IMG/VR virus record: IMGVR_UViG_3300017786_000003
Span: 43,861 to 107,860 of that record
From: a virus
Length of the DNA: 64,000 nt
Strand: one strand, 5' to 3'
The notes under the pieces were generated by a model, which was given only the letters and a program-made list of their open reading frames with translations, did not search any database and was not told the DNA's origin. The position numbers and the translations under genes are program-made. How positions within the stretch are numbered: position 1 is the stretch's first letter; each line of letters opens with the position of its first letter. Below are positions 16,132 to 62,186 of this stretch, one piece after another.

Positions 16132-17682
16132 TTATGAGTTTTCTAATGCTTTTACTTTAGCTGATAAATCTTGTATTGCTTTTACTAGAACAGGTATTAA
16201 TCTACCATATGTAGCTTCTAGTTTTTCCGGATTAACATCATATACTAATCTTGTATATTCATCATCAACTTCTTGTAAGTCTTGAGCTACAAAACCTACA
16301 TCTTTTAAACCTTTTTTAGCACCATCTCTTCTATCCCACTCAAACGTTACTGGTTTTAAATTATCTACAAAGTCTAATCCATATACAGAATCTTTAATAT
16401 CTTTTTTATCACGCTTATCTGATAAAGCTGTTATGCTTGTTACTTGACATCTTAAAGCAGCTGTACTAGAATTACCTAAAGTTATTTCATTACTTACAGT
16501 TAAACTACTAGGCTCAGCTTGATCACCTATAACTATATTGTTATTACCTGTAGTGGCTCCATCATTTGCTTTCCAACCAATTGCTATGTTTTGATTAGCT
16601 GAGATAAGTCCTTCTAATGCATAAGCACCTAAAGCTATATTAAAATTACCATCTTGTAAGTTTTTTAAACAAGATCTACCAACACCAACATTATTAGTAC
16701 TTTGGCCTGGATTTACACTTTTAATTTCTGCACCTACAAATGTATCAGCTAAACTTAATGTACATTCCATACCAGCTTCAAAACCTATAGCAGTGTTTGA
16801 TGGTACCGCAAACATTGCAGATACATTTTGTTTGGCTAATGCTTTATAACCTACAGCTGTACATTGAACTTCATTATTTTCTAAATTTAAAGCATTAAAC
16901 CCAAAAGCTGTATTACCACTATCTCCTGGTACTCCACCACCTTGACCAAGTAGGCTTGCTCCAGCCCCTATACCAAAAGCTGTAACACCTGCTTGAGTTG
17001 TTGCTGGATTTGCTCCTTGCATAAAAGTTCCTGAAGCTGGTGAATATTGAATTGGATTTGTCTCAATAATATTACCAGTACTATTAACAGATAAATTAAA
17101 TGTAGGTGTACCAGTTTTGCTACCAGACCCATAATCTACAAACTTTACAGATTTATGCAAATCTATTTCTTCTGCTCCTGACGTAGTCTTAATCTCAAGC
17201 ATTGGATTATTTCCAGCAGCTCCAAACTTTAAACCTAGCCCAGCCCAGTTATATAAAAATCCAAAACCTCCCCCGTCATCATCCCATCCGAATGAAACTT
17301 TAGCAACTTTATCTTGTTGTATCACAAATTCAGGATCACCAAGAGTTACACTACTAGGTTTATTTATAATAAATCTATCACAATCGTTAACTCTCATTTG
17401 ATACAAACCAGTAGATAACTGTGGAGATTGCTCTAACTTACTATCTGCTAAAGTTCCCTTTGGGCCGTCTGACCATAGAGGAACAAAGTTTGTTGTACCA
17501 GAGTTTAATGAAGTTCTAAATTCTTCAAAAGTAATAAGTCTATTCTCCATCTTAGGATCATATGCATAAATACCTTCTGGCCCTTGTATTCTTCCTAAAA
17601 TTATATAGTTGTTTGGATCTACTTTCTTTGCTACTTTCTTTCTAGAAAGTAATCCCATCATATCTTGTAAAATATTTCCCAT
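16132..17682 (-). CDS. Tail fibre/spike with C-terminal S74 chaperone
   Basis: A 516-residue fibre. The N-terminal about 35 residues (ILQDMMGLLSRKK ... YIILGR) match the docking segment of the 1218- and 280-residue fibres. The centre has YadA-head-like AFG.NAL / AIG.EA / IVIG.QA repeats. The C-terminus (about 415-516) is an intramolecular chaperone of the peptidase S74 family: the SDKRDKKDI signature supplies the Ser-Lys self-cleavage pair, followed by GLDFVDNLKPVTFEW and DVGFVAQDLQEV. The domain would trimerise the fibre and then cut itself off. It lies convergent to nrdA with a one-base gap and no visible terminator between. Confidence 0.88.
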   Translation of the reverse strand: MGNILQDMMGLLSRKKVAKKVDPNNYIILGRIQGPEGIYAYDPKMENRLITFEEFRTSLNSGTTNFVPLWSDGPKGTLADSKLEQSPQLSTGLYQMRVNDCDRFIINKPSSVTLGDPEFVIQQDKVAKVSFGWDDDGGGFGFLYNWAGLGLKFGAAGNNPMLEIKTTSGAEEIDLHKSVKFVDYGSGSKTGTPTFNLSVNSTGNIIETNPIQYSPASGTFMQGANPATTQAGVTAFGIGAGASLLGQGGGVPGDSGNTAFGFNALNLENNEVQCTAVGYKALAKQNVSAMFAVPSNTAIGFEAGMECTLSLADTFVGAEIKSVNPGQSTNNVGVGRSCLKNLQDGNFNIALGAYALEGLISANQNIAIGWKANDGATTGNNNIVIGDQAEPSSLTVSNEITLGNSSTAALRCQVTSITALSDKRDKKDIKDSVYGLDFVDNLKPVTFEWDRRDGAKKGLKDVGFVAQDLQEVDDEYTRLVYDVNPEKLEATYGRLIPVLVKAIQDLSAKVKALENS

Positions 17683-17694
17683 TGGTTTGTGGTT

Positions 17695-18099
17695 TTAAAA
17701 TTGTGATTCTCTTTTGCAATCATCAATAGAAAGCTGCAACTCTTCTAGTGTCACTGGACATACAAGATCAAGCCCTGCTTTGAATGCAGCATACTTAAAT
17801 CCATCCTTATCAAATACAATGATTGTTGGAGCCATTCGTACTCTATACTTTTTCTTTGCTTTTAGGTTCTCTGATATATCCGCCCTATAGTATTTTACAC
17901 CTGTTAGTTTTCCCCAGTCCTTAAAAGAGTTATCGTCATTAAATTCTGCCCAAAACTCTACTACAACCAAAACATCTAAATCGTCAAATGCAGAATTACC
18001 TACTACAGACTTTTCAAAATCTTTATCCGTTAACCAATCTTGTCCATTAACTGTAGTACTAAACAGTAAAAAAAAGAAACATAATACTGCTCTTTTCAT
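17695..18099 (-). CDS. Exported thioredoxin-fold protein lacking the CxxC pair
   Basis: A 134-residue protein with a signal peptide (KRAVLCFFFLLFSTTVNGQ) and a thioredoxin-like domain: strand VVVEFWAEF, helix, strand VKYYRADI, helix, then VRMAPTIIVFDKDG with the cis-proline. The position where thioredoxins have W-C-x-x-C reads W-A-E-F-N-D, so both redox cysteines are missing. It would act in the periplasm, perhaps as a chaperone or binding protein rather than an oxidoreductase. It lies 3 bases downstream of the membrane/coiled-coil gene, in a cassette that also encodes an outer-membrane barrel. Confidence 0.7.
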   Translation of the reverse strand: MKRAVLCFFFLLFSTTVNGQDWLTDKDFEKSVVGNSAFDDLDVLVVVEFWAEFNDDNSFKDWGKLTGVKYYRADISENLKAKKKYRVRMAPTIIVFDKDGFKYAAFKAGLDLVCPVTLEELQLSIDDCKRESQF

Positions 18100-18102
18100 A
18101 GT

Positions 18103-18384
18103 TTATTTTTTAGTTAAATCATAGATTCTCTCTTCCATTTTCTCAAACTTCTCAAGGAGCATCTCTACATCCTCTTGGGTATCCATAATTGTTTGTCTTA
18201 CTAGTTCATCTTTTAGATCATACTCAACCCTGTCTATAACTGGCTTGGGCATTTCCATTGCATGAGCTATATCTGCTTGGAGTGTAAACCACATTGTTGC
18301 TAATGTGATAGTAAATCCTACAATCATACCTATTGTTTTTAAGTCTAATGTTACCTGAGTTTCTTCTCCTATTTTCTGTGCCAT
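18103..18384 (-). CDS. Single-pass membrane protein with coiled coil
   Basis: A 93-residue protein with one membrane segment (about residues 17-35, IGMIVGFTITLATMWFTLQ) and a C-terminal acidic/basic coiled coil (heptads in TQEDVEMLLEKFEKMEERIY). The layout resembles small phage envelope proteins such as inner spanins, with a periplasmic coiled coil, but the N-terminus is unusually polar and long for one. It sits between the exported thioredoxin-like and the outer-membrane barrel genes. A spanin or envelope-anchor role is an inference. Confidence 0.6.
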   Translation of the reverse strand: MAQKIGEETQVTLDLKTIGMIVGFTITLATMWFTLQADIAHAMEMPKPVIDRVEYDLKDELVRQTIMDTQEDVEMLLEKFEKMEERIYDLTKK

Positions 18385-18390
18385 TTTATT

Positions 18391-19599
18391 TTATTTAAAA
18401 CTGAAATTTAATCCAAATGATGTAAGGAATAATTCACTATCCCACATTTTAGAATACTCACCTTCAACAAATACTCCAAAGTTTTTACTGAGCTTCCAAC
18501 CTAAACTAAGTCCAGCAGAATAATCATCCCACTGTTCTAGATCTGCGTCTTCTCTTAATCCACCTTTACCCCAGTTGTTTCTATTTAGATAAGACACTTC
18601 TTCATCTCCTTTAATATATCTATGGTAAGGTAATATATAGTTTGCATATGCATGAACCCAAAATTTGCTTTCATAATGATAAAAATCCATTCCTACAATT
18701 GGTGCAATCTCACCAAAAGCATCAAGCATATCCCACTGCTCATTATTATAACGGTTCATAAGATCAGTAAATACTGTTTCTCTAAACTCTAAGTCTGTAT
18801 CAGCTACTCTATTTCCTTGAGGATCTACCCAATACCAGTCACTTGTTTGGTTCCCTAGCTCATCTTCTGAAGTATAATATATATCATCATACCCATATTC
18901 AAACCCTAGCTCATACCAATAGTTTACAGGATACTCTTCACCGTTTATAACTTGTGTTTCATTTAACCATATTTCAATTGGATTATATCCATAAGCACGG
19001 TCATGAGTACGGTAGATTGCTCCAGCTGATATACTAAACTTTTCACCTAATGGTAACCTAGCTCTTAACTCTGCTGACTGATAATCAAGATTTATCTTTC
19101 CTACTTCTCTTGATTCAACTTTTACTATGTGATATTTTCCACTATGTTTTAAAAAGAATCTATGATTTTTAAAGTCTTCTCCTCTCCATCTTTCTTTTTC
19201 AAAATGGAATTGATATTCTAATCCTTGTAGTGCAGAAGAAGGTGCAGTAAAAGCAAGCTGTTGTTCTGTGCCATCATACCAGTTTCTTGGCTTTCTTTCA
19301 TAATCAAATCTTGCTAGCTTTCTAATACCAAATCCATATCTATAGTCAAAAGGAAATACTTCCGTATTATCTACTACATCTGGAATAGAATATAAGCCAC
19401 CATCTGGGTTTGTTCTTACAAAATAAGTTTGTTGTCTTGCTTCTATAGAATTTTTTACATCACCGGCACCATATACAGTACCATACTGTAGAAAATCAGA
19501 AACTAAATCCTTTACAAAACTACGTTCTTTAATAGAATCTTGTGCTAGTAATGTAGTGTAAGAGAGCATACATACCAACACTAAAAAATATTTTCTCAT
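18391..19599 (-). CDS. Predicted outer-membrane beta-barrel protein
   Basis: A 402-residue protein with a clear signal peptide (RKYFLVLVCMLSYTTLLAQ, cleaved before DS). Many amphipathic beta strands with aromatic girdles follow (KFSISAGAIYR, NYWYELGFEYGY, KFWVHAYANYIL, DYSAGLSLGWKLS), and the protein ends in a strand terminating in aromatic-hydrophobic residues (SFGLNFSFK). This is the pattern of an outer-membrane barrel, not of a virion protein. Regulation is not visible; 71 AT-rich bases precede it. It could alter host surface receptors, block superinfection or help release. No specific family is recognised. Confidence 0.7.
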   Translation of the reverse strand: MRKYFLVLVCMLSYTTLLAQDSIKERSFVKDLVSDFLQYGTVYGAGDVKNSIEARQQTYFVRTNPDGGLYSIPDVVDNTEVFPFDYRYGFGIRKLARFDYERKPRNWYDGTEQQLAFTAPSSALQGLEYQFHFEKERWRGEDFKNHRFFLKHSGKYHIVKVESREVGKINLDYQSAELRARLPLGEKFSISAGAIYRTHDRAYGYNPIEIWLNETQVINGEEYPVNYWYELGFEYGYDDIYYTSEDELGNQTSDWYWVDPQGNRVADTDLEFRETVFTDLMNRYNNEQWDMLDAFGEIAPIVGMDFYHYESKFWVHAYANYILPYHRYIKGDEEVSYLNRNNWGKGGLREDADLEQWDDYSAGLSLGWKLSKNFGVFVEGEYSKMWDSELFLTSFGLNFSFK

Positions 19600-19670: not shown

Positions 19671-22600
19671 TTATTTAATAAAGAAGTCACTATTTTTAAG
19701 ATAGCTATCCCATTTTTGGAATGTATACCAAATAGGAACAACATCTTTCCAATTTTTAGCAAGTTTCAGTTCTCCTTTTCTAGGCTTATTTTGATATACA
19801 TACTCAGAGTTCTCTCTAAATTCTTTATCACTATAATATACATAAGCTATTGGAGTTCTAAAAGATAAAGATAAAGCCTCACCCAGTTCTCCTAATGTTC
19901 TTGTAGCTGCTATAGGTGACTTAAACATTTGATACTGTTGTTTTAATCCAGAAGGATGCGGTGTAAATAATACTAATTCTTTATATGTTCTATCTGCTTG
20001 ATATTTAGCAATATTTTTAAATCTTTTTGTTAGTTCTGAGTCATCATCATCACCAGCTAACATTACTTGCATTAACTCACTAAGTAAAAATACTGATATC
20101 ATAATTCCTATTTCACCTGCAGTTCTGTAGAAACCATATAGTTTGTTCTCTGCTCTCTGATCAATATTACCTCCTTCTCCAGTCCAATCATGATCTTTTA
20201 AAAATCCTTCTTTATAAGTATTAAACTGTAGATTACCTGTTGCTGCTGTTTTTAAAGCATAGTTTATAAACTTCAAAGCGGATATATATCTACCTTCCAT
20301 CCATCCAAGGTTTTCATCAAAGTATTCTCTTTGATATCTTGCTCTAAATGCTGGCATAACCCATTTATGAAACTGTGCTGCTAAGTTACCAAGCGTTGTA
20401 CTTTGAATAACCATTCTATCTTCTTTAGCATAGTTACCATGAATTTGTTTATTAACCTCTCTTATTTTATTTCTTAAGTCATATCTATACTCATCAGTAT
20501 AAGCCACTTCTCTACCACCTTTTTCAACTACAGTATCAAATCCTTCTTTAAGTTCATTCTTATGTGTTTTAGGATTATAGGTAAATGCATCATATAAAGA
20601 GAGTGTCTCACCTGTTGTACTATTTTTAATTGTAGTATCCATCAACATGGCCATACCTACTTTAGTTTGTACATTGTATTCTGCTGCATCCTGAAGAACA
20701 TATCCCCACTCAGCTGCTTTAGCAAACCAACTTTGGCCTGTAGTAGTATCTGCTCCCTGTTCACGTATGTCTGTCATTTTATCCATCATCCTAAACATAT
20801 CTACAAAAGCTTCATATTTACTATTAGCTTTCTCAGGATCATAATCAACTTTACCAACACCTTTAGCTGCACCAAAAGTAGCAACATAACCTAAATCTTT
20901 CATATAATAACTAGTTCTAGAAACAATATCAGGAATAGCTCTTTGATTAAAAACTTTTACAGCTCTTAGATATGATGATCTATTAAAGAATCTTTGACCA
21001 AGCATTTCTATATTATTGTTCACTCTACCAATAACATAGTTGTTAAAGTTACCAAACGGGTTAAAGGCAACATAAGTAAGAGAAGAAACTTGAATTAGCT
21101 TATCTGCTATTTTATCAAACATTCCTTTGGATATTTTGTGGTTATCATAAAAGGTCATAGACATCCACTTCTTAGCTCGTCTAACAGCATTTGCTTCTAA
21201 CTTGTTACTACTTATTTTTTGTCCAACCTTTTTAACAGCACCTTCTACCACACTGAAAGATTCTATATCTGTTTCAGGTGAACCATATTCTCTTTGTTCT
21301 AGTACCTTTACCATAGAATTTAATGTGTCTTCTACAGTACTCATTGTCTCATAGTTTTGAGCCATTGCAATAAACTTTAAAAGACTATCAGTAAGATCTT
21401 TACTAATCTGACCTACAGTTGGAGTAGCTCTTAACCTTGCTATCTTACCATTAAGTTTTTTTAATTCTATATCATACTCACGTGCTCTAATTTTATTTTT
21501 CTTTCTTTTACTTTTTAATTCTGTTCTTTCTGCTTCAAGCTTTTCTAGTTCTCCTTCAACTCTTGCATTACCAGTAAAGTAAATTGGTAAAGTGCTTACC
21601 ACATTACCAAGCTCATCAGTAGTAACACCCTTTTGCTGAGATGTACCTTGAGTAAACATAGAAACATTTTCAACTGTTTCTGCCCACTTTCTAGCTATAA
21701 AGTTCTTTTTGCCTTTTACTTCAGCTAACATTTTTTGTTGAACTACAGGAAGTCTACCAAGCATATTAGTTATATGTCCAGGAGGAAGCTTTTCCAATTG
21801 CTGTTTATAAACTGCAGTCCACATCTCATAATATTCTTTTTGTGCTTGTCCTAGTGCATCTGTAGGATTCATAATCTTAAGATACTCCGGACTTAAAACA
21901 CTTTCACCATCTATTAGTGCATCATCTTTTATCTCTCTATACTCTGTTTTTGGAAAAGCATTGCTACCCTCATTAAATACTGTAGCACCAGTAGGTTGAC
22001 CCTTAAAATATACTGGTCTAAGCTTTTCTTCATTAGGCATAAAGTACTTAGCTTTATATTGGATGTACTCTGCTTCAGAAACAGTGGCTCTTTTTTTCCA
22101 CTTTATAAATCCTATCTCAGTATTTACAATTGCATATTCATGAATATCTCTAGCATCTTTAAACTCTTGAGTATATCTGTGGATATCACCATCTATTATA
22201 TTCCCAGCATCATCAACTTGTTCAGCCTTAAAAAAGTTACCTAAAGCTGCTTTGTCTTCTGCAAGTTGTTTATTATGTTCTAATTCCTCTGGCTTAGCCT
22301 TAAATGTATTAGGTATGTCATAATATAAACGTGGTTTACCATCACTATCAAAAGTCTTTTGTCTTAACTCATGTTGTTTATTTTTATAGTTTGGTCCTAT
22401 CTTTTCTACATATGTACCATCATCCTTAGCCATAAAATTATATATCTTCTGAGGATCAGTTTCTGCAGATAACTTAATTAATTTATCAGCAGCTTGAAGT
22501 ACCATATCTTTTTGAACAGATATTTTATCAAGCATCTTTTGCATAGCTGCTTTATATATCTTGTCCATTATAGCTAATATTACATCAGGAGATGTTGCCA

Positions 22601-25391
22601 TATCTCTAGTTTGATAGTCCATATCAGTAATGTCAGGAGCATAAACTAATAACTCTTCTAAGTCTTCTTCAGTAAATACACTGTTTTCACCACCAAAATC
22701 TCTGTTAGATCTAGCTCTAATCTGTTCTTTTACAAAATTCATAAGTGCATTATCAATAAGTCCTGGCTCACCTTTTAATAGTGCAGATCCTCCAGTAAGT
22801 TTATTAAGTTCAATTTGAATATTAGATATAAGCTTTAGTTGAGAGTTATTTAACTCTCCTGCATCTTTAATACTGTAAAGACCCTCAAAGGTTTTTATAA
22901 ATCTATTAAAGTTTAGAACAGCAGTTATATATTCAACGTCTTGTACATTATTAGGATCTTCTATATATTCTGTAAACTCTTGGATTTGTTTTAATGCATC
23001 ACGTAGTAGGCCTGTATATATAGTAGACCTACCAGCAGATCCTACCTCATCACTAAGTGCATAGGTAATATAAGCTGCCTGAGATGCTAGCTCTTCTAAT
23101 TTTTCTTTCTTAGTACCTTTCATAAAAACTTTACTCTTAATCATCTGTAAAGCTTTTTGTTTATCTATAATACCAATACGGTAATCTCTAAGTGCAGAAA
23201 TAATAGTTTCTGTCTCAGGATTATCAAGTCTGTTTACTTCTTCTCCTGCTGGATCATTTTCTTGTTCAACATCTTTACCTTCAAAGTCTGCTTCAGGTTC
23301 ATTCTTATTTAACTCTGCTTGTCTTTGACGTTCAATAGAGTTATCTACTTTAATTAATTTATTTAAGTTACCTTCTGTTGTATTATCTAAATCATGTTGT
23401 TGCCATGAGTCAAATTCAATCTTACCATTAAACTTTTGATTTTTTCCTTTGCCTGATATATCTGCAGTAAAGTGTAATGTAGATGCTCCATAAGAGCCAT
23501 TATCAACCTTGAACCCCATATTCTCAAGCATTCTTCTATACATGTTTACTTGAAGACTATGTTGAGCTCTTGTAGATAATTTTGATACACCTCTTTGTTT
23601 TAATAGACTATCTGCCTTTAAACTGTTATTAAATTCTTCATCATATAATTTTATTCTTCCTCTACCTTTTGCTTTTTCTGCTAAACTTTTTGGTGAGTTA
23701 GATAACTTACTCAATGAGTTTTTAGAAGTTTTTAAATCTAAAACCATGAACTCTCCATTCTTCTTTAGAATTAATAGATCAGCTGTCCCAGCTATTTCTG
23801 ATGCTGTATCATATAAAATGACTTGAGGTATTAGTATAGAACCTGGTGGTGCAATATATCTTAATGCATCACTCAGACTGGTCCATACTTCAGCAGCTTG
23901 TTCTTGAGTAAGTAAAGTTAATTGAGATACTGCACTAGAGAACGGTTGATCACTTGCTATTGTATTTAATAGAGTATCTACATCATTACCTAAATCTAAA
24001 TTTAGTTGTATTTCTTCTTGGTTTGCAAGTGTACCTTTTATTGCTGTAGTAGCAGATGTCATTTTTTTACCTGTAGTAATATTTCTATACTGGTGATCCT
24101 TTTCATTAAAAGTTATAATAGGTGAAGTTAGCTCTGGGTCATTAAGATTAGCAACTAAAGCATCTTGTTCATAGGTCTCTGGATCCGCAGTCATATGAAA
24201 TAATCTATCAAGAGCTGCTAGTTGTATTTTGTTTCCTGCAGCTTGTTGTTTCAAACTATCTACAACTTTTTGTTTTTCTGGAGTTAATGAAAATCTAATA
24301 CTTCCATCTACTCTAGACTCTAGCTTAAACTGTATACCTTCTGTATTTAAAAGTTTTGCTATATCACTCATAGATGTGTTAGCATTTATATCTGAAACTA
24401 GTATGGGTCTTCCTGTTAAATATTCATTAAGATTATTGATCACAGTTGCTAACCATTGTAAAAATTCTTTAACTCTATTTAAAAAACCTTGTGATGGCCC
24501 GTTCTCATACTCTTTATTAAAGTGTCTAGACAATGCTTGTGTTACAATTTCTAAGTCTCTATCTTTTTGTGAAAAGGATCTTTCTGCACTATTGTAAGAG
24601 TCTTGTATCTCTTGACTAAGTTCAGGAAAAGTTCTTATTGATTCAATCAACAAGTTATCAAATAACTCAGGATTATCTACAGCTATGGCATCTATAAAAG
24701 GATGAAGCATTTCTTCTATAGCCATTTCATCTGTTATTCTCCCTTTGATTAGGTAAGCTACTCCATCAACATAAAATGAATTTACTTTGTTGAATGGTGT
24801 ATTTTTTTTCTTCCAGTCAGGCATTGAGTCAAATAAAGCAGACGCTTCTGATACAGACAGCATTTGTATATTAACTTGGGGAAACATTCTTTTAAGGTGC
24901 ATTACAACGGCTCTAGCTCTTGGTGTATCCCATGATCTTGACTCTGGTAATATATCTTTTTCACTAAATAAGTTTTCATTTACAACTACTCTAAATGTTT
25001 TAGGAGTTCTTTCTAATGATACTCTATCAGCAGGTATGTTATTAATCTGCAAATATCTTTGTAATCTTATTCTATTAGTATTTAAAGTGGATTCATCATA
25101 CTCTCTTGTATTGGCATTAGAATTATTTATATAGTAATTGTTTTGGTATTGATGTATTATTCTTTCTCTACGTAAATTATTTAACAGACTTTCTTTAAAG
25201 CTTCTTTTTTTCAAATTAAAGGCTAAACTTTTGTTCCTTAAATAATCAGCCGCTTCTACAACTGTAGGAAAAGTATCTACATTGTTAGCATCTTGCCATG
25301 CATTTATAATATTATTAGTCTGCAACTCTGTTTTATAAACTGATTGTAGTACTTTATACTCTGCTGTATTTTTATTTGGACATCTAGCCAT
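19671..25391 (-). CDS. Giant virion protein: degenerate zincin and PD-(D/E)XK nuclease
   Basis: A 1906-residue protein. Residues about 140-330 resemble the zincin domains of phage giant proteins, but the HExxH site reads E226-E-M-L-H230, so the first metal His is missing. At about 430-670 there is a RecB/Cas4-type PD-(D/E)XK nuclease: D538 (AGTADLLIL), D552-L-K554 (LDLKTSK) and a QxxxY-like motif (QHSLQVNMYRRML). The remainder is helical with long charged coiled coils, a region FNPFGNFNNYVIGRVNNN, and a hydrophobic helix near the C-terminus (GIMISVFLLSELMQVML). It lies directly downstream of the virion RNA polymerase gene and so probably enters the host with the DNA. Confidence 0.75.
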   Translation of the reverse strand: MARCPNKNTAEYKVLQSVYKTELQTNNIINAWQDANNVDTFPTVVEAADYLRNKSLAFNLKKRSFKESLLNNLRRERIIHQYQNNYYINNSNANTREYDESTLNTNRIRLQRYLQINNIPADRVSLERTPKTFRVVVNENLFSEKDILPESRSWDTPRARAVVMHLKRMFPQVNIQMLSVSEASALFDSMPDWKKKNTPFNKVNSFYVDGVAYLIKGRITDEMAIEEMLHPFIDAIAVDNPELFDNLLIESIRTFPELSQEIQDSYNSAERSFSQKDRDLEIVTQALSRHFNKEYENGPSQGFLNRVKEFLQWLATVINNLNEYLTGRPILVSDINANTSMSDIAKLLNTEGIQFKLESRVDGSIRFSLTPEKQKVVDSLKQQAAGNKIQLAALDRLFHMTADPETYEQDALVANLNDPELTSPIITFNEKDHQYRNITTGKKMTSATTAIKGTLANQEEIQLNLDLGNDVDTLLNTIASDQPFSSAVSQLTLLTQEQAAEVWTSLSDALRYIAPPGSILIPQVILYDTASEIAGTADLLILKKNGEFMVLDLKTSKNSLSKLSNSPKSLAEKAKGRGRIKLYDEEFNNSLKADSLLKQRGVSKLSTRAQHSLQVNMYRRMLENMGFKVDNGSYGASTLHFTADISGKGKNQKFNGKIEFDSWQQHDLDNTTEGNLNKLIKVDNSIERQRQAELNKNEPEADFEGKDVEQENDPAGEEVNRLDNPETETIISALRDYRIGIIDKQKALQMIKSKVFMKGTKKEKLEELASQAAYITYALSDEVGSAGRSTIYTGLLRDALKQIQEFTEYIEDPNNVQDVEYITAVLNFNRFIKTFEGLYSIKDAGELNNSQLKLISNIQIELNKLTGGSALLKGEPGLIDNALMNFVKEQIRARSNRDFGGENSVFTEEDLEELLVYAPDITDMDYQTRDMATSPDVILAIMDKIYKAAMQKMLDKISVQKDMVLQAADKLIKLSAETDPQKIYNFMAKDDGTYVEKIGPNYKNKQHELRQKTFDSDGKPRLYYDIPNTFKAKPEELEHNKQLAEDKAALGNFFKAEQVDDAGNIIDGDIHRYTQEFKDARDIHEYAIVNTEIGFIKWKKRATVSEAEYIQYKAKYFMPNEEKLRPVYFKGQPTGATVFNEGSNAFPKTEYREIKDDALIDGESVLSPEYLKIMNPTDALGQAQKEYYEMWTAVYKQQLEKLPPGHITNMLGRLPVVQQKMLAEVKGKKNFIARKWAETVENVSMFTQGTSQQKGVTTDELGNVVSTLPIYFTGNARVEGELEKLEAERTELKSKRKKNKIRAREYDIELKKLNGKIARLRATPTVGQISKDLTDSLLKFIAMAQNYETMSTVEDTLNSMVKVLEQREYGSPETDIESFSVVEGAVKKVGQKISSNKLEANAVRRAKKWMSMTFYDNHKISKGMFDKIADKLIQVSSLTYVAFNPFGNFNNYVIGRVNNNIEMLGQRFFNRSSYLRAVKVFNQRAIPDIVSRTSYYMKDLGYVATFGAAKGVGKVDYDPEKANSKYEAFVDMFRMMDKMTDIREQGADTTTGQSWFAKAAEWGYVLQDAAEYNVQTKVGMAMLMDTTIKNSTTGETLSLYDAFTYNPKTHKNELKEGFDTVVEKGGREVAYTDEYRYDLRNKIREVNKQIHGNYAKEDRMVIQSTTLGNLAAQFHKWVMPAFRARYQREYFDENLGWMEGRYISALKFINYALKTAATGNLQFNTYKEGFLKDHDWTGEGGNIDQRAENKLYGFYRTAGEIGIMISVFLLSELMQVMLAGDDDDSELTKRFKNIAKYQADRTYKELVLFTPHPSGLKQQYQMFKSPIAATRTLGELGEALSLSFRTPIAYVYYSDKEFRENSEYVYQNKPRKGELKLAKNWKDVVPIWYTFQKWDSYLKNSDFFIK

Positions 25392-25402
25392 ATCTTAATC
25401 TA

Positions 25403-28400
25403 TTAATTTAATCCTAAACATTTTAAATGTTCTTTGAACTCTTCTTCTGTAAGGTTCACATTAATCTTTCTCATTTCTTCATATTGTTCTATCATAGAGT
25501 CTAATGGGAAAAGTTTCTCTTGTTGCAAGATAGGAATATTATTTTTGTTTTCTAATAACCTATCATACTCATTTGCTATATCAGGATACTGTTCTTCAAC
25601 TTCTTCTTCAAACTGAAACTCCATTTGTTCATAAACTATATTATCTAAATTACCAGGATCAGATGGAATATACTCTTCTTCCATAGCTTTAAGGACAAGA
25701 GCCTCACGTTCATCATTATCCATAACTTCTTGATTATCAAATAATTGTTGTTGTATTTCTTGTGTATCAGCAATATTAACAGGTGTAGATTCAGGTCCAG
25801 CAGCTTGAACTGTTACAGACCTTTCTGTAGCTTCAACAATACTGCTTTCAGTTTTTATTGCTTCTTCAACTGGATCAAAAGCTATATCTGTTGTTTGAAC
25901 AGGTGCATCTATTTGATTTTCTTCAGAATAATTCTGAGCATTTTTTCTATCTATAAAATTATTATTTTCTGATAGTGTTGGTCTATCTCCAAATATAAAT
26001 CCAATAGGAGTTTGTTGCTTAGATCCCATAGGTTGAACTCTTTTATATACAACCTCCTTTTTAGATGCAAGATCACGTGTAAATAAAAAGTAATCTATAT
26101 TTCCAAATTCATTTATATTACCTAATCTTACAAAAGCAAAACTTTTTTCCTGATTTTCTTCTGTATTAAATACTAAATTTCCATCTTTAAATGAGTATCC
26201 TTCTGGCAGGCTTCTTCTTTCCTGTGCTGGACCACCTTGATATATTGTTTTAACATATTCTTGAGAAGAAGTAGATAACAAATAATTGTCTAATAATGTT
26301 TTTTCTAAGTCAGCCTGTGATAAACCAAAAACAGACTCAAATGTAGCTTTTCCATTTAAAGCCTTTTGCACATTGTTTACTTGATTCAAATAAGTATTTA
26401 AGGTATACGGACTAATTGCTTCTAATAAACTTGCATAACCTAATTCTAAACCATCCTTAACCATTATGTAATTAATAATAGCTTCAGCAGACTTGCGTGT
26501 TTCAATTGTATTATATAACTGAGCAAAGCTGGTTTGTAGATCTATTTTTTGTGAAGATGAAAGATTTCTAAATGTATTAGCTTGTGCTAAATTCATTCCT
26601 GTTTTATTATTTGAGTTATCTGCAGACAGTAAAAGCACAAAGTTTTGTAAAAAGAAATTATCTGCTAGACTTTCTCTTTTTTGTAAATCTTGTACAACTG
26701 AAATAATAGACTGAACTGATTGTCCATCTATTACTGGTTGAGGATAAACAAAACTATTAGATAATGTTGCGGCTAGTTGACCATCTGTTTGTAAAGCATT
26801 ATGTAAATAAGCTTGCAGTGTCAAATAAGATACAATATTCAATGAGATATCATTTTGTATTTTAGTTATCTCTGGAGTTACTGGTATATCCATCCCATCT
26901 AAGAGTTTGGTGTACATACCTACAAAAGGCTTTGTAGAAGATATAAAGACTTCAGGAAGTAAAACATCTGTTAGCTGATTAACTATATTTACATATGTAC
27001 CCCTCCATGTATCATTATATAAATCACTTACGGAAATTAATCCCTGGGTTTTAAGTTCTTGAATTGTTCTTTTTAAGTTATTTAGTTCTACTATGCTACT
27101 AGGTAATCCTTTAGTAAGGCTTGTTATCGCACCCATTTTACTAGTAACTTCAACCAAACCAGAAATCTTAATTAGTTCTTCTAAAGCAGACTTTGTAACA
27201 TCTTGACTATCCACTAGGTTACCATCAATAAAATCATACATCAACTCTTTAGTTAACTTAGTAGATTTTATAGATTTATATTCGTCTGACCTTAATATCT
27301 TTTCTGCATAAGTTGTAAGCTTTATTCCTGAATCTACTCTTGCATTAAAAGCATCTTGAATTACTGGAAGATTAATAAATAAAGTAGCTACTTCTAAAGG
27401 TACTCCTAATGCAATCATGTTAGCCATTACACTCATTGCTGGTTTACTTAAACCAAGTTTAGATATATAACGGTCTTTAGCATTATCTACTGCAATAGAT
27501 ATTAAAGCAGAAAGTGTATCCTGCTTTCTTTGGAGACCACCTACTTCAGTTGACTCAGCAAAACTATCATACTTAATACCATCTAATTCAAAGGCTCCAT
27601 TTACAAGCTTGTTACTTTTGAGCCAGAAGTCCCAATCTAGTTTCTTTTTACTTTCAGTTAATAAACTCAAATATAAATTAGGTAATACCACTGCACCAAT
27701 AGATGCACCTTTATTAGATTTAAATGCTTTTGTCTTTCCTAGTAAATTATCTACATCAACATTATCTTCTTGTAATCTATCACTAAATACCTGAGATTTT
27801 CCTGCTAACACATCTAATGTAGTTTTTACAATATTGTCATTTGCTGGAGAATAAGCTATAGGTATTCCTGTGCTTGATTCTGTCATACCTCTGTTACCTA
27901 CTAAAGCATATCTATAATCTAATACTTCATTATTATAAGGAGCTTCATATGGAAAACCATGATCTTCTTTATATTTTGCGTACTGTGCTTTAGTTACAGG
28001 TAAACCTAACATCATTAATGCTTTTCTACTTTCTTCACTAACAGGACCATCCGGAATAGTTACTAAATCTACTTCAGCATCACTAAGTTGGTGTTCTGGT
28101 TTTACAGCATTATCTTTATATTGCTCTAAAGATTCAGAATAAATAGTTCCTGGCTTAGTAACTTTTTCATTTACATAATTAATATATGCATTATACTCTT
28201 CAGTTAAAGAAGCCTCTTTACCATATTCTACAAATTGACCATCTTTAATATAGTACTCTTTCATCAATGCAAATACTTTATCTATGTCAAAATCAGCACC
28301 AGAAGTTTCTATTAGTTCTTGAGCAAACATTGCTGAAGACCCATAATAGACAGGCATAAAGTCTACTAATTTCATATTTACAGAAGAGTGTTTATCCTGA

Positions 28401-31400
28401 GAAGGTATTCTCACACCAAAAAACTTAGATATAACACTTGGCATTGATGCATCAACTTTATCTTCTATCATTTCCATAACATCTTTGTCATGTGCTGGCA
28501 TCATAAACTCAGTATATCTTTGTCCAGTCAAACTTTCTGGGTCTTTAGGATCAGTATACTCCATTAATCCAGATCTTAATCTGTCTAGAATAACTACACC
28601 GTCTTTGCCTGGATCTACACCTAACCAACTCTGTGGTTTATTTGAGTCAGTATCATTTGTTGACTCAAATATTTCTGGTTTTGTAGACATAGCTTCCCAT
28701 TGCTTTTGTCTTATTATTTCTGATCTTAATGGCAAACCGTTTTCATCAAACTCATACACACGTCTATATACTTTATTACCATAATCAGATACCAGATTTA
28801 CAGTAACACCAGGAACACGTTCTGCTAATACACCTCTACTAAAGTATGACATGAATAATGATTCTGCTTTTCTTACAGAAATAGCATTATTTAAATTGTA
28901 AGATATACCAGCATCATCAGCAAAAAATTCTAATAGATTAGATGAAGCTTGAGATGCTTTTAGACCAGCTGTTGCATACCTTAAAAATGCTGCTAACTTT
29001 GGAGTAATAACATTATCCTTTTTAGATAAAGTAAACTCATCCATTGCAGTTTGAAAATCAAAGACTAAGTTTCTTCTATTCTTATATTTAAATAATACTC
29101 TATTAGATAATGCATCACTGTATGCTTTTCTAACATCCGCAATGGTCATAGTAGTACCATCAGGATTTTTTAATCCTTCAACTTTGACTGAGTCATCTTG
29201 TTCAGAAGTAACTAATTCTTTTATCTGAGACATGTCTACTATGTCCATTTTATTAGATGGACTTACAACTTGAAGACCCATATATCTTGCATCTAAATCA
29301 GTAAACTGTTCAGATTTTAATTCTGTTTCATTATTAAATTCAGATATATCAACAACATTCCTTTTTTCCATTTTCACAGCAGACACAGGAGCAGCAATAG
29401 ATATTGTTTGTTCTCTTGCCTCTTGTGCTTCCATCTTAACTCTAAGATTATGTAACTCTACTCTGTTAGGTTTTGCAACCCAAACACCTTTATCAGCATT
29501 CCAATCAGAAGTATAATCTTTGGTTAGTACAAAAGCAGACATCTTTAGATATGTTTTACCATCTCCATAAACTAATTTCTTAGAATTAATTAATGCTTGT
29601 GCTTTAGCTAAACCGGCTTTATTATCATAACCAAAGACTCTATTTCCAGTTATTGGCTCAAGACCTACATCTAAATGATCAAGCAGTTCAACTTGTTCAG
29701 GTTTTAAAAGACCCATACCAAACCATAAATATCTAAACGCTTTAGTAGTCATATACATTTGAGCATCTGCCTTATCAATTGAAGCGTTAGAGAAAGAAGA
29801 TACACCTTGTGGCTCAGTAAAGCTTATTAATGATATTTTTTCTACGCTGTGTAGTACCCCTTGATCAGGTGATGGAAATGCACTATAAGCATTATAATAA
29901 GATGCATTTTGCATTTTGGCTCTCTTTATCTTATCAACAGGATCCTTTAATGATGTTGCTTGATCTCCTAGTAATATCTCATTTATACTGAATGTATTTA
30001 TATAATCATTAACAAAAATCTGTTTTAGATTATAATCAAAGTTATCTGTAAGATTTAATAGTTCATTAGATCTTTGCAAATCTGGTGTACTAAATCCTTG
30101 AGCTCTTACTAAACCTTGCTTGACCTTCTTAGAAATTAAGTCTGATGCATTTTCTGATTCTATTACCTCTTTAAACTCTGTAACTTGGTTTTCAAGATTA
30201 TCAACAACAACCTTTCTTAATGCTGTCATTCCTGCTGCATTTTCTAATGCTTGATCAAGAGTTATAGTATTACCTTGTTCACCTTGTAGTTTAGCAATAG
30301 ATATAAGTTTATTTTTTAGTTCTTCAGATAATAAAACTCCTGTATTAAAAAATGTATATGCTCTACCACCTTCTGTATTATAACCTCCTACTGTATCTTT
30401 GGTTGCAGTATCTGGGTTAAATTCTCTGTTAATCCTTGCAAACTCATTTCTGATATTATTAACTATAATGTCTACAGCTTCTTCAGTAAGTTTAACTTCA
30501 TTCCCAACAAGCTCAACAGCTTTAATTACAGGTAAGTCAATTTGATCTCCTGTATTAGATGCTTCCATTACTCTAATGAGCACGGATGCAATAGCACGCT
30601 CTTGAGTATTACCTTCTTCATCAAGGTATTCTACTGTACTAACTTTACCACTTTTAGTATTAACGTTTGCAGTATAGTTATTTAATAAAGTTGATAAAAA
30701 CTGTCTAGGACTAAAGTCACCATAAGTATCAGTACCTAATACATTACCTGAAATATCTTCTCCTGTTATTCTATCTTTTTGTTTAAGACCTGCTACTCTA
30801 AGAACTTTTAGTCTATTAGTAAGAGAAAGTTTTAAGAACGCAGGATCATTTAATAAATAATTATTTTCTAAAGCAGGATCCTCAAGTTTTCTTTGTATGT
30901 TATTTGGATCATTAAGTTCTGCTATTGATGTTAAATGATATGTACCATTTTGATGTGCATAAACCAAATCACCATTAGCATTTCTAAATACAGAAGCACC
31001 TATTGTCTCATCAAACATAGCATTACTTTCTGCCATAGCTCTAAGTCTACTATTCATGCCCATTTCACCTGTATCAAATATGTCTTGATTTCTTTGAATT
31101 TGTCTAGACATTTGCTCTATATCTTCAAGTACCAGTCTTTGTCCATTAGGATTTAAATTTAATAATGCAATCTGAGATGGTTTCAAAGCATCAGTAGACT
31201 TAGCTGCAATAAAATTATATTTTAAATAAAGCGGACTAAATCTAATACCTACATACTGATATATTTGTTCAGATAGCTCTTTTGCTTTGTTACTTAATAC
31301 CTCATCTGTTTCTGTTTCACTATTCAATGATATAGCATCATACAAATCTTGTATTGCATCAACAGCTTGATTTTTTCTTTTCTTATCAGATATAAGTTTT

Positions 31401-34400
31401 TCTTGTTTATATAAAAACGCTTGTGCCCATCTATCCATTTGTGAATTAATATCATCACGTTGGGCAGCAGAATAAACTAAGCTATTACCTTGTTGGTCTA
31501 TCTCAGTAAATATATACTCAACTCTAAAGTTTGAGAAACCTTTTATAATTTGTTGTAAGAGTAAAGGATCTTTAATTGGCAATGACAATGCTGACCCATC
31601 AAGTATTGCTTGTGGATTTATTTCTCCAAAAGTATCTAATAATATTCTATCTATTACTGCACCAGAGTTCACATTAGACTGTCCAAATAAATATAAACTT
31701 TTTAATATGTCTATAGGAGCAGTAAGATTCTTAACTGATTTTAAAATACCATTATATGCCTCATTAAAATTAACAGGAACTATTAATGGCTCACCTTCTA
31801 CCAATATAGTATTACCAAAATAATCTTGTTCTGTTACAGTAGTAGTTGCTAAGTAAGCTCTTAAGAAACCAGGTATACTATTTATTCCTCCTATGTTTGA
31901 AGCATCTGTATCAAATTGTGATGCAGATCTAATACCTGTTATATCTGAAAAGTATTCTTCATTATACACAGCATCTACTAATTGACCATTAATGATATTT
32001 AAATATTCAAATACTTGTTCTTGAATAACATCTTCAAACCTATCAAAGGCTAAACTTATTTCTGTTAGTCTTTGTTTTTGTATGTCTGATCTTTCTGCAT
32101 TAATTGGATTTTCAATATTATATAAATTTCTAAAGTTATCTAATACCTCATTCATTACTTCTCTAGGACTATATGGTCCTTCTGATGCAGCCTTGCGTTC
32201 AGCTTGAATATAATGTGCAGCAATACCATGTATAAGTGGATTGGCAATATTGTTACTTAAATACAAGTTTCCTTTTACACCATTTTGAGTAATCTCAGCA
32301 TATGGTACTAATGCATTTGCCTCAGAAGCAATACCAACTTGCATATCTGCAGTGAATTGATTTCTAACCAATGATGCTCCTTTAAACTTACCAGCATCTA
32401 TAGATTCAAATAAACTATCTAAAGAAGCAAGTTCTGTCTTAGCACCTAACACAGATTTAATCCATTCCATTATTCTATTAAAGAAAGACTTTATAATACT
32501 ATTAGTCTTTGTACTCTTAGGATTCATTTTAAATTTTTCAAATTCATCTGCTAAGTACTCTTCGTAATATTCTCTTTCTAATTCTGCTCTAGTCATATTT
32601 GCATATGTATCAGCAGAGTTCTTAAATTTCTGAAGTTCAATTTCTAAACTCTTTCCTTCAGATCTAAGTTTTGCTCTCACTTCTTTTTTAGCTATACCAA
32701 TATACTGGTTTATTTGCTCATCAGTTAACAACATTCTAAACACACCGTGAAAAGCCTCATGATATTTAAATGGAGAATTTGCTCCTGTGTATATTGTACC
32801 ATTAATCTTTAGTTCACCTGCAATCTCCTTAAGCACCATTACAAAAGCACCTACTCTAACCCCTCCTGCTTTCAGGTTATTACCTAAAGTCTCTATATCA
32901 GCTGTAGTTATAAAATCAGGTAATGCTCCTTCTGCCCATGTAGTAAAAGTATTTATATCTTCAATATCTTCTGGTTTGAGTTCTGAAGTATCTCTTACAA
33001 CTTTATTAGCACCTTTATCTAATTTTTTTCTAAGCTTTAAAAGGTTTTGGTATTTCTTACTTTCTCTTAGGACTTTACCTTTTTCTTTAAAAGGCACGCC
33101 TTGTGTAAGTTCTTCTTTTAATTTATCTAGTTCAATTATTACATCTGATAAAGATGCTACTTCATTAGTTGGATTTTCTATTTCAGAAGTATCTATTCCT
33201 TGTTTCTGTTTAGAATTAACTAATAAAGTTATTTCAGTAATCCTAGCTGATTCAAGTTCAGTTTCTCTTTCCGTAAGTTCTTCTCCAGCAACTCTTTTCT
33301 GTACTATCTTATTTATATATTCAACAGGTACTGATGCAAATCCTTCATCTTTATAATCAGCAAAGTCTTGATCAGAAATTTCTTCTAGTTCTACAAAAAC
33401 AGTGCTTGATGCTGGAGCCCGTGGTACTGATACATCTTGTTCTGGTGCATCTTCTGTTTGTGTATTAACACTATTAATAACTTTAGTTAATTGTAATGCT
33501 TGTAAAACACTTTGACTACTTGCATTCAGTAAAAGCTTCTGTGGCACAATTACATTATTAGCCACAGGTGTTGTTGTATTATTTATAATAGTATTTACAT
33601 CTGTATTCCTAGGCAAGTGTTCTCTAAAGTTTTTACTACCTAATACAACAGTTTTTCCTTTGAATTTTATTTCTTTATTAACTTCATCATTATTAAACTT
33701 TTCTATTAAGTTACTTAGTTTCTTTGCAGGAGTAAGACCCTCTTCAACTTTATTTACTTCATCTTTATCTAATTCATAAAATGTTCTTTCTTTAGTAAGC
33801 TTATTATATTTTAATAACTGAACTTTACCAAACTTATCTACTTTTAATTCTAAATCATATCCTTGAGCAAAACTAATAAATAAAGAATTCTCTAAATCTA
33901 TATTGAATTGTTTTGGATATTTATTATTTTTTTGTACCTCTTGAGCTTTTGTTATTAAGCTTATTGCTAAATCATTCATTTGCTGAGGAGTATAAGATCT
34001 AGCCTTTAAAGGAACTAATACATAGGTACCATTAGGTAAAAGAACTGCAGCTCTATATCTATCACTATTTTGTCTAATACCTGAAGAATTACCTTTGCTT
34101 TGTTCAACCATCTCTGACCATTGTCCAGACTTTTCTAATCCTGCTTTAACTTCTTCTCTTAGTTTTTTCTGTTCTGCAAGAGTCTTTTTATTTGTTACTG
34201 GTACAACAGTCCCTGCTTGTATATCATAGATTATTAACCCACCGGAGTTATCAGAAGTGTTATACTGTAGAGTATCAAATGAGTTGAGTATACCTTTCTG
34301 CATATCTAGTTTAACACCTTGCAAACTAAAACTCATACCATAAGGTAACTGCTTTGCATTAAGAGTAAATACATCCCCCTCAAAGGTTCTATCTATAAAT

Positions 34401-37400
34401 TCTGTCAATAAAGAATTGATACCAAATACTTGCGTAAAGTATTTAACTATTTCTTCCTTTGGTACCCCTTTAAAGTCACTTAAATCTACCAGATTAAATA
34501 ACTGATCATAAGTAAGATTAACTTGATCAGGTAATGCTACACCTTTAGTATCTGTATATATATTTCTATTATTTGGTAAATATGCAAAAATACCATCTGC
34601 CTGATCGCTTGGTTTAATCCCTGCTCCTTCTAAAACACTATTAATTTTTTCTTTTGTAGTTTGAAAATCTTCTGGACTTGAACCAATAAAGCGTAGACCT
34701 ATTGTATATTTTTCTCTTACTTGTTTAATACTTGAGTTAGCTTCTTTCCCTGGGATAACAAAGTTGTTTCTTTTTTTACCTGCATCTTCATTAAGTTTAA
34801 TTACAAGCTCTAAACTATTTATTTGCTCAGGTGTCAATACAGAAAGGATCAACTTCAGTCTTTGCTTTCCTGTAGCATAATCTGCGTTATCTCTTTCATC
34901 TATATTAATATGTGGATAAAAGCCTAATAAATCTTCTACCGTTAGTCTACTAACATCAGTTGTATATTTAGTTAGGTCTAAAGGTTTTTGTAAAAACTTT
35001 CTTTCTATATTTTCTGCTAATACTTCTTCTGTTTCATCTATCTTATTTTTAGGTGCTACAATGATTGAACCAACTCTAACTGCTTTAGGAGTACTCAATA
35101 CTATATATTCTACACCTGTAATTTTATCAAATAATGATGAACCTTGATTAACTGTAAACCCACCAATTGAATATGATGTAGAATCAGGTGCAGCATCCTC
35201 TAGTTGTTCAAACACTTTTCTTGCTGCAGCCTTAGTCTTGTATGTAGATTCTGGATTATTATTTTCAGGGTCTACTAAAGATCTAAGAGTAGAGCTAATA
35301 GGATTACCTTTTTTATCTGTAACCATATAAAACGCACCAACATCTGGATCAGTTACTTTAACAACATTTACAGTAGAGCCAGATATTAAAATCTCTGTAT
35401 TAGCTTTACCTGCTACTTGTTCACCTGGTTCATTATATTCTATACCAGTATCAAAAATATCATTATAAGATAAATTAGATATAGCTAATACTTGTCCTAC
35501 TAAATCATTCTCACGCCCATCTCTACTATTTAGCCATTCCTGTAATCCTACTTCTGATTGTATATCTTCTGGAGATGCATTTGTTTCATCAGCCCAAATC
35601 TTTTTTATAGCATTAAAGGTGTTTTTATAATTTAATCCTTCTTCTGTGTTTCTCCATTCTTGGAAACCAATCTTTGATTTCTTACTACCTTGTTTCATAG
35701 AAGCTAGCATCTCTGCTTCATATTTTTTATATTGTGTCATTAATAATTCATCCAACATAGGAGAATTATTTTCATTTTCAACAATAACTTCTACTCCACT
35801 TTTGTCTAATACTTCATCTTGTTTTGTTTTATTTTCATCTGCTACTTTTGCAGCCTGCTTTTCTTCTTGAGTTTCAGCCTTAGTAGATTGTGTTTCTGTT
35901 TGTTTTCTATAAGCTTTTAGTTTTTCTTGTATTAGATTCCATGTTACTTCATCTTGTAATGGTGTTACAGATCCATCAGCATTATAAAAAGTTTTAAGTA
36001 CATCAACAACTCCTGTCTGTAAGAATACTTTTGTCTGGTTTATATCAGCATAGATACCTAAAGCTGCTAACTGGTTTAATAACTCATTAGCTTTGACAAC
36101 ACCTACATAATTTTCAATAACACTCTTAAAGTTCTTTTGTATATTTCTGTATGCTTGCTTATTAAACTCAAATGTTCTATCAACAATTTCCTGAAATTTA
36201 GTTGGATCCTGTAAATATTCAATAGCCTTATAGTATGTCTTTGCAGAACCTTTTAAAGCCATATAATCTACCATCATCTTAAGAGCATTTTCTACTTTGG
36301 CTTCATTTATAAAACCGTCAGAAGATTCACTAGCCATAAATCTCATATAATTAAAAAACTCTTTTCTTAGTTTCTCTATTTTACGTCTATCAAAAGCACC
36401 CTTTCTGCCACCTTTAGTACTAGTAGCATTTTTCGGGTCAGTTACAATCTTATAGATAGCTTGTAACCTTTTCATTCTTTCATTCTTAGATTTTATTTCT
36501 GCTCTTGCTGCTGAGGTAGCACCAATAGGAACACCTTTGTTATCTCTTTGAAGGTTGCCATTTTCATCTTGCTTTATATCACTATTGTTTATTTCAGCAA
36601 GCAACAAGTTAATTTCTTTTTGAATGCTTGCAGGATCTAATAATACGGTAATATCTTTTGCTGCCATATTTTGAAACAGAGGCTCTTGAGACAAGTTACT
36701 AAATATGGAGTCAGCTCTTTTTAATGCTGCACTAAAACTATCTTGTGTAAATAAATATAAATACCTTGCATGCTCATATCCCATGTAGGCTAATGTTTCT
36801 TTTATATACTCTCTACTACCTGGTTTAAATGATTTTGGATCATGCGGGTTTTGATATCTGTCCTTTGCTTCATTATAAAAATCTTGTGTCTCACCAATTT
36901 GATTAATCATTTTTTGCAACCTGTGTCTGAGCTTCCCGTTTTTTATATCTTTTTTAGTTGATGGAAAAGCTTCTGCAAGTTCTTCATCAGAAAGATTCAT
37001 AAAATCTTTAAGTTGTTCTTGAAAATAGAAAGAACTTTGGTTATTCATTATAGTATAAATCTGCTGAAACTTAGCATAGTCTTGTTTATTTTTAAAATTA
37101 AACATGTCATCTTGAAACATGTCCTCCTTCATTCCATCTTTTATTTGCTTTTGTATTAAGAAGTTAAACTTAGTTGGATCAAACATTGAGTTAGGATCAT
37201 TTATTTGATTGTTCCATGCTGTATTATGCACCTCAACCAACTTACTAATCATATCTTCTTCTGCTTGTTTTAGATCTTTGTATGCTTGAGGATCATTAAT
37301 TCTTTGATATATAGCAGGTACACCTTGGAAAAATAATTTTTGTGGTCCTTGTACTACTCCACCCATTAAGAATCCAGACATAAAAACATCAAACCCTTCT

Positions 37401-42479: not shown

Positions 42480-42538
42480 AGTTCAAAAATACTTTAATTT
42501 ATTAAGTTTACAAAGTGGATGAAATAAACTCTTTAAGT

Positions 42539-45700: not shown

Positions 45701-45702
45701 AA

Positions 45703-48810: not shown

Positions 48811-48870
48811 GATGATTATATTATAATATTAATATACAAATAATTAGGGAGAATCACTAATCTTTTAGGT

Positions 48871-61625: not shown

Positions 61626-62186
61626 TTATGCTGCTATAGTAGAAACTAACAATTCAATAGGTACACATGCTCCACCTATTTGTGAATCTTGTATCTTAAT
61701 TTTGTAAGCTGTACTAGCAGTTAAATTAGTTATTGTATAGTTTGAAATAGTTGTTGCTATTGGAGCAGCGTTTACTAACGTCCATCCTGAAGGATTAATT
61801 TGTGTATCAATATATATATTAATACCATTACTAGAACTCCATATACCATCCCACAGTACATTTATGGAAGAACTAGTTACCACCCCTGCATATTGATTAT
61901 AAGGATTATGTGCTAAATCATTAGATGAACAAGCCCCATTACCATTTATTTGTAATAGACAAAGTTTTTGAATTATCTGATCTAATCTAGTACCAGAAGT
62001 AATTACTATCTGTCCACCAGCTGGGCCAATTTGAAATGATGTACCACAATAACTTACACACGCAGCACACTGAACATCATCACACCTTTCACTTCCTGTA
62101 CTACAATCTGTATACGTACATGGATTAGTCAAAGCTGTATCAGCACAGCTACATTTTTCACTACATTTTGTACAATTACATGCCAT
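61626..62186 (-). CDS. Cys-rich surface protein with FN3-like domain
   Basis: A 186-residue protein. The first about 48 residues carry eleven cysteines in C-x-C and C-x-x-C spacings (MACNCTKCSEKCSCAD, then PCTYTDC), suggesting a metal- or disulfide-stabilised tip or base. The C-terminal 100 residues look like one fibronectin type III-like sandwich (INVLWDGIW ... YTITNLTASTAYKIKI). No signal peptide is present, which points to a virion rather than an envelope location. It is next to the larger VWA/FN3 protein and ends with a strong terminator. Probably part of a surface appendage. Confidence 0.6.
   Translation of the reverse strand: MACNCTKCSEKCSCADTALTNPCTYTDCSTGSERCDDVQCAACVSYCGTSFQIGPAGGQIVITSGTRLDQIIQKLCLLQINGNGACSSNDLAHNPYNQYAGVVTSSSINVLWDGIWSSSNGINIYIDTQINPSGWTLVNAAPIATTISNYTITNLTASTAYKIKIQDSQIGGACVPIELLVSTIAA

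Follow-up and report, generated by a model that had tools for sequence, protein, structure and literature searches.

The nuclease-bearing protein and its gene block

A 64,000-nucleotide stretch of the IMG/VR virus record IMGVR_UViG_3300017786_000003 (positions 43,861 to 107,860 of that record; hereafter, the window) encodes a protein of 1906 amino acids (aa) in which a PD-(D/E)XK nuclease domain had been proposed from the sequence. The open reading frame (ORF; 19671-25391), like all the features of this protein and of its neighbors described below, lies on the minus strand. Its C-terminal region (residues 1172-1843; 19863-21878) is homologous to gp49, an RNA-polymerase-associated cargo protein of phage crAss001, as judged by a match to the gp49-family profile (E = 1.9e-49). 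The nuclease domain, delimited by conservation, Pfam and PHROG matches, an AlphaFold2 model and structure comparison, spans about residues 415-690 (23322-24149).

The gene adjoins an ORF of 4565 aa (25403-39100) that carries an RNA polymerase catalytic motif of the DxDxD type, DFDID, at residue 3603 (28280-28294), the same motif as in the virion RNA polymerase (vRNAP) of phi14:2, and this proximity to a vRNAP gene is characteristic of gp49-type proteins. The 4565-aa ORF is also similar to crAss001 gp50 (blastp E = 1e-12) and contains a canonical zincin site, HEAFH, at residue 2114 (32747-32761), with spacing identical to that seen in other fused giants. A crAss001-type gp47 profile gave no match to the N-terminal half of this giant; the HEAFH/DxDxD spacing, the gp50 similarity and the matching of related giants by a gp50 profile are the basis on which it appears to be a fusion of gp47-like and gp50-like parts. 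In crAss001, gp47, gp49 and gp50 were found in virions by mass spectrometry and assigned to the capsid cargo zone, and gp47- and gp49-type proteins have been termed RNA-polymerase-associated (PMC10172136). PHROG profiles identify the terminase (E = 1.5e-60), portal (5e-90) and major head protein (6e-31) of the window phage. Its closest named terminases are those of the crAss-like phages cr50_1 and cr1_1 (25% identity), and its closest capsid protein is that of Leptolyngbya phage Lbo-JY46 (29%), which is not classified in Crassvirales. Judged by its gene block, the window phage is crAss-like.

Site residues, fold and subtype of the nuclease domain

Relatives of the 1906-aa protein comprised five full-length proteins at 50-56% identity (best segment); searches with the nuclease domain retrieved 80 loci and searches with the C-terminal region 58, and the set was condensed to 47 lineages at less than 85% identity. 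The first catalytic Asp, D538 in AGTAD (23778-23780), is kept in 47/47 lineages. The (D/E)xK motif D552-L-K554 (23730-23738; D552 at 23736-23738, K554 at 23730-23732), the QxxxY motif of RecB/Cas4-type nucleases, Q614-VNM-Y618 (23538-23552; Q614 at 23550-23552, Y618 at 23538-23540), and D472, at the motif-I position in LGNDVD (23976-23978), are each kept in 46/47. Mean column conservation across the domain is 51%, whereas these six columns all rank among the top 16 of 256 (P = 2e-8). D538, D552, K554, Q614 and Y618 had been named in the original prediction and occupy the places in the ORF that it gave them; the stretch that it delimited (23410-23860, residues 511-661) falls inside the nuclease domain, which proved to be longer and to include D472 as a sixth conserved polar residue.

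Profile searches support the same assignment. PHROG 298, annotated as 'exonuclease', matches the window domain (E = 1.4e-8) and 45/47 lineages, and Pfam PDDEXK_1 matches 34/47, with the window domain scoring 18.8 bits, slightly under the curated cut-off of 22. Scanning the full 1906-aa protein against Pfam and PHROG returned only a sub-threshold PDDEXK_1 match at the nuclease site, and recognition needed the domain alone and its relatives. An AlphaFold2 model of the domain built from the 47 sequences (predicted local distance difference test (pLDDT) score 91.5; predicted template modeling (pTM) score 0.88) presents a restriction-endonuclease-like alpha/beta core, and comparison with solved structures revealed matches to human MGME1 (Z 11.6, root-mean-square deviation 3.9, 164 aligned residues), AddAB (10.8), Cas4 (10.8), RecE (10.1), Dna2 (9.7), RecB (8.9) and lambda exonuclease (6.7). 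Foldseek gave only marginal E-values against the PDB (best 1.1e-3), its top matches in a viral library included large crAss-like phage proteins, and sequence searches of the PDB returned nothing or chance-level matches. Together, these results bear out the RecB/Cas4-type nuclease site of the original prediction, which was to fall if relatives lacked either a PD-(D/E)XK fold or conserved catalytic residues; both were found.

None of the 47 nuclease domains contains a cysteine, and the four cysteines that hold the iron-sulfur (Fe-S) cluster of Cas4, AddB, Dna2 and EXO5 are therefore absent, which excludes such a cluster and assigns the domain to an Fe-S-free type. RecB-type nucleases carry a metal-binding His at motif I, a position occupied by Asp in 46/47 lineages; this substitution bears on the subtype of the domain, not on its fold. 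The motif reads LGNDVD in the cargo copy and LGNWYH in a 272-aa stand-alone PD-(D/E)XK protein of the same phage. The Asp is shared by gp47 of crAss001, cr128_1, cr106_1 and cr126_1, and the His is present in cr1_1 and cr55_1 (Culoivirus), in cr108_1 and in the stand-alone copy of crAss002. Since Asp can bind metal, the substitution does not predict inactivity. What is new in the copies of the window clade is the combination of a motif-I Asp, in place of the His of RecB, with a lack of cysteines.

The nuclease-domain profile also retrieves crAss001 gp47 (E = 2.6e-13), in which the corresponding motifs are GTSVD, AGEVD, DVK and QLSAY, as well as gp47 of cr128_1, cr106_1 and cr126_1 and the gp49-type proteins of cr1_1, cr55_1 and cr108_1. 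The window phage encodes three PD-(D/E)XK copies, the cargo copy and two stand-alone proteins located outside the window (record positions 17594-18412 and 42465-43460) that contain 2 and 6 cysteines; the 272-aa one is encoded just past the terminase gene. A tree of nuclease domains did not separate a single origin of the cargo copies from several (approximately unbiased (AU) test p = 0.22; long branches), and on these grounds we do not claim independent moves of the domain between cargo proteins. PDDEXK domains in large crAss-like proteins are already known as a kind: Yutin et al. 2021 (PMC7886860) describe up to three PDDEXK proteins per crAss-like genome, in some phages with one inside a large transcription-associated protein. 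The crAss001 virion-structure paper makes no mention of a nuclease (PMC10172136), and in the open literature we found no paper joining the PDDEXK domain of crAss-like giants to virion-detected cargo.

Cysteine depletion, terminal cysteine pairs and proposed delivery

The 1906-aa protein contains one cysteine against 20 expected (P = 4e-8) and the 4565-aa protein one against 48 (P = 5e-20), the cysteine content of the other proteins of the window phage being 1.05%. The ejected proteins gp15 and gp16 of T7 and the vRNAP of N4 have no cysteine, and this paucity of cysteine is an argument, separate from homology, that the nuclease-bearing protein is ejected. The earlier view of the domain as part of a probable ejected giant protein is thus strengthened by the homology to virion-detected gp49, by the occurrence of the domain also in gp47, itself detected in virions, and by cysteine depletion like that of ejected proteins.

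The two remaining cysteines lie at facing ends of the two proteins. Cys4 (25380-25382) is the sole cysteine of the 1906-aa protein, and all 44 full-length relatives likewise have one cysteine at residues 3-5 and none elsewhere. Cys4561 (25418-25420), five from the end, is the sole cysteine of the 4565-aa protein, and 42/42 relatives carry a cysteine 2-5 residues from the end. Among ordinary ORFs of these phages, 5% have a cysteine within the first six residues and 13% within the last eleven. A facing-end pair was found at every junction checked across Crassvirales and in one cyanophage. In crAss001, the single cysteine of gp47, Cys2339, is third from the end, gp50 has Cys5, Cys2404 (nine from the end) and one internal cysteine, and gp49 has a single Cys5. 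The cleanest case is phi14:2, in which a 1800-aa protein ends in cysteine, the vRNAP contains only Cys3 and a penultimate cysteine, and the next protein contains only Cys3. Terminal pairs are also present in cr128_1, cr111_1, cr106_1, cr126_1, cr1_1, cr10_1 (eleven from the end), cr118_1, cr108_1, crAss002 (its N-terminal cysteine if the start is the preceding Met), loci L139, L142, L144, L147, L206-L209 and cyanophage Lbo-JY46. Internal cysteines have been acquired in some lineages, with as many as ten in one protein, but the terminal pair persists. We also observed that both terminal cysteines are retained in L120, a lineage whose nuclease site is described below.

Gene fusions are informative in this respect. 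The window clade and the Suoliviridae-type giants have gp47 and gp50 in one protein; a pair between the fused parts is absent and would not be needed, and the pair to gp49 is retained. In crAss002, gp50 is fused to gp49 (gp49 profile at giant residues 3618-4215, E = 1.8e-53); the giant lacks a C-terminal cysteine and gp49 does not occur as a protein of its own, but the protein at the gp47 position (2021 aa, cysteine second from the end) retains its pair. Pairs are therefore missing between fused neighbors and kept elsewhere, as a coupler predicts. A DNA-level junction signal underlying the two cysteine codons was considered and rejected, given that these codons lie 20-55 nucleotides apart, are not fixed in position and can be TGC at the C-terminal site; the use of TGT at 44/44 N-terminal sites is uninformative, because TGT encodes 60 of the 65 cysteines counted in the phage. 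An apparent exception to the cysteine pattern, cr108_1, was dismissed because an insert, probably an intron, divides its vRNAP gene close to the catalytic motif. The insert (NC_055878, ~58405-58684) is ~280 bases long and has no match in Rfam.

Disulfides are known to form in crAss001 virions, in the tail hubs, the rings and gp57. The LC-MS/MS data on these virions include both reduced and non-reduced samples (PMC10172136). We propose, in a judgement that falls a shade short of even, that disulfide couplers between facing single cysteines join gp47, vRNAP and gp49 head to tail in otherwise almost cysteine-free chains, forming an ordered train of ~0.7 MDa that would be threaded through the tail and would separate in the reducing host cytoplasm, with nucleases or other enzymes as passengers. 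For the three crAss001 proteins the masses would add up to 694 kDa (262.5 + 276.9 + 154.5). At the junction in the window, the cysteine near the C-terminus of the vRNAP giant and Cys4 of the nuclease protein would form the coupler that keeps the two proteins in order and opens in the cytoplasm, a view of their delivery that we regard as evenly balanced between right and wrong. Single thiols might instead serve another purpose, for example to anchor the chains to different proteins of the virion. The terminal-cysteine pattern of these cargo proteins is apparently unreported: no paper mentioning it was found among open papers, and earlier notice elsewhere is possible.

Upstream of the nuclease, the last car of this putative train carries a zincin-like domain (residues ~150-300; 24492-24944; AlphaFold2 pLDDT 73) supported by structure and hidden Markov model (HMM) matches. 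Its best structure matches are zincin metallopeptidases (Z 5-7), residues 2156-2371 of N4 vRNAP score Z 4.1, and the HMM match is to a domain of phage Lbo-JY46 whose HEFMH site is intact. The HExxH site has Glu for its first His (E226-E-M-L-H230; 24702-24716) in 43 of 44 relatives, the exception being L136 (HEYLH), and the third zincin ligand, E281, is kept in 44/44; the gp49-type proteins of phi14:2 and Lbo-JY46 have HExxH. Last-car proteins mostly share 20-32% identity between lineages. The 2748-aa counterpart in cyanophage Lbo-JY46 (L011 17355-25601, XAI97381) contains a GNAT acetyltransferase domain (E = 3.6e-8), and both the capsid protein and the gp49-like region of this phage are related to those of the window phage.

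Between the vRNAP giant and a muzzle-like ORF, four large ORFs (1119, 1053, 1035 and 925 aa; 39120-51648) with 0-2 cysteines each constitute candidate cargo or ejection proteins on the basis of composition and crAss001-like gene order. The 925-aa protein (48871-51648) has a SET-domain match barely over the Pfam cut-off (23.6 vs 22.4 bits). Elsewhere in the window, a DNA repair exonuclease-like protein (60292-61515; PHROG 704, E = 3e-40) is encoded among structural genes, and a 186-aa protein (61626-62186) contains 14 cysteines, mostly near its N-terminus.

Possible tasks of the nuclease and comparison with known systems

We consider it likely that the window protein brings an active DNA nuclease into the cell as cargo, a judgement that does not extend to any particular task. 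Residues ~425-690 would constitute a metal-dependent, Fe-S-free DNA nuclease of RecB/MGME1/Cas4 type within the last vRNAP-associated (gp49-type) cargo protein. Packed in the virion, the 1906-aa protein would follow gp47 and vRNAP through the tail in an unfolded state, and the nuclease would be in the cell before the expression of any phage gene. There it may process DNA ends at entry, chiefly those of the incoming linear genome of the phage, which would allow annealing of terminal repeats and thereby circularization or protection of that genome.

Several points weigh against this reading. We infer catalysis, packaging and ejection in the window phage, and cargo status from homology and composition; the sequence does not separate the proposed roles, and Asp in place of the motif-I His is unusual. 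The phi14:2 record yielded no match to the nuclease profile or to PHROG 298. In addition, lineage L120 keeps the domain and has lost D472, D552, K554, Q614 and Y618 together, suggesting that activity is dispensable in that lineage. L121-L123, L130 and L133 are of the same kind as judged by scores, L120 being the member examined. Such a joint loss is what lost activity is expected to look like in sequence, and the other 46 lineages appear constrained to keep the site.

End processing at entry is the most likely of the tasks considered, ahead of action on host or defense DNA and of a part in transcription, and is nonetheless a tentative proposal and the weakest step of the mechanism. The structurally matched enzymes act on DNA ends. 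Terminal redundancy and circular permutation have been reported for crAss001 genomes (PMC10136315). We rank this task first because related enzymes need ends, because of that terminal redundancy and because two other copies can serve later stages; with those two genes available, the cargo copy would be distinguished by arriving first.

A somewhat more doubtful possibility is an early attack in which the ejected nuclease, ahead of phage gene expression, breaks down host DNA, plasmids or nucleic-acid components of defense systems; a role of this sort has been suggested for the enzymatic domains of polyvalent proteins. The association of a zincin-like domain with a nuclease in one protein is in polyvalent-protein style (PMC5512222), the variability of the last car, with its acetyltransferase in Lbo-JY46, fits such a role, and the closest PADLOC models, although weak, are DruK and Cas4. 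No targeting domain was found in the nuclease protein, however, helicase-less RecB-type domains usually need ends, of which an intact chromosome has none, and the domain is conserved over the whole clade, unlike fast-turning anti-defense genes.

It is unlikely that the nuclease serves the vRNAP, for instance by opening ends or nicks for initiation or by trimming RNA. The cargo copies do reside in gp47- or gp49-type proteins, called RNA-polymerase-associated and encoded near the vRNAP gene, but the nearest folds are DNA enzymes, and phi14:2, the phage with the experimentally studied vRNAP, has no profile-detectable domain, which makes a general need of the vRNAP less likely. It is slightly less probable still that the domain has no catalytic activity and binds DNA or has a structural role, to which its persistence in L120 after site loss and the replacement of the motif-I His would point; the retention of five canonical residues in 46/47 lineages, far above average conservation, argues against it. 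A role in virion assembly, such as trimming packaged DNA with cargo presence being incidental, is the least probable: the gene adjoins the structural block and the 272-aa copy follows the terminase gene, but two stand-alone proteins are already there for intracellular work, and the lack of cysteines in the cargo copy alone points to an ejection constraint.

An active nuclease entering with the genome would act before phage genes are read, and what becomes of the infecting DNA could depend on it in crAss-like phages, the most abundant human gut viruses. Because gp47 of crAss001, a virion protein of a cultivable phage, has the same site, the question can be addressed in the laboratory. If the terminal-cysteine rule is real, it would account for the fixed order and ratio in which the giant proteins leave a narrow tail, a point left open by the authors of the crAss001 structure.

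The nuclease domains of RecB, AddB, Cas4 and Dna2 share with the cargo domain a common fold and the D...DxK and QxxxY motifs; the cargo domain differs in lacking the Fe-S cysteines of the AddB, Cas4 and Dna2 type, in having no helicase and in its motif-I Asp. Among its structural matches, MGME1, RecE and lambda exonuclease are Fe-S-free PD-(D/E)XK exonucleases, from which it is set apart by its embedding in a 1906-aa probable virion protein and by a sequence identity of ~13%. Polyvalent proteins (Iyer et al. 2017, PMC5512222) are likewise very large multidomain phage proteins combining zincin-like domains with nucleic-acid enzymes, but the text of that work does not include crAss phages, and the zincin site in the window protein is EExxH. 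The vRNAP of N4 and gp15 and gp16 of T7 are also large, ejected and cysteine-free; unlike in the crAss-like cargo, successive large proteins are not matched by cysteines at their facing ends (in T7, gp14 has Cys2 and gp15 and gp16 have none). The domain described in the available portions of Yutin et al. 2021 (PMC7886860) belongs to the same superfamily, kind of host protein and phage order, in which many genomes encode two to three such nucleases, as the window phage with its three. To the general naming given there, this analysis adds the gp49-type placement, the 47-lineage alignment, the motif-I Asp, the lack of cysteines, a probably dead lineage and the link to virion-detected crAss001 gp47. 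With the gp47/gp49/gp50 cargo of crAss001 (PMC10172136) the window phage shares gp49 homology, the nuclease domain found in gp47 and the vRNAP gene block; in the window phage, gp47 and gp50 are apparently one 4565-aa protein, and the nuclease resides in the gp49-type protein instead of gp47.

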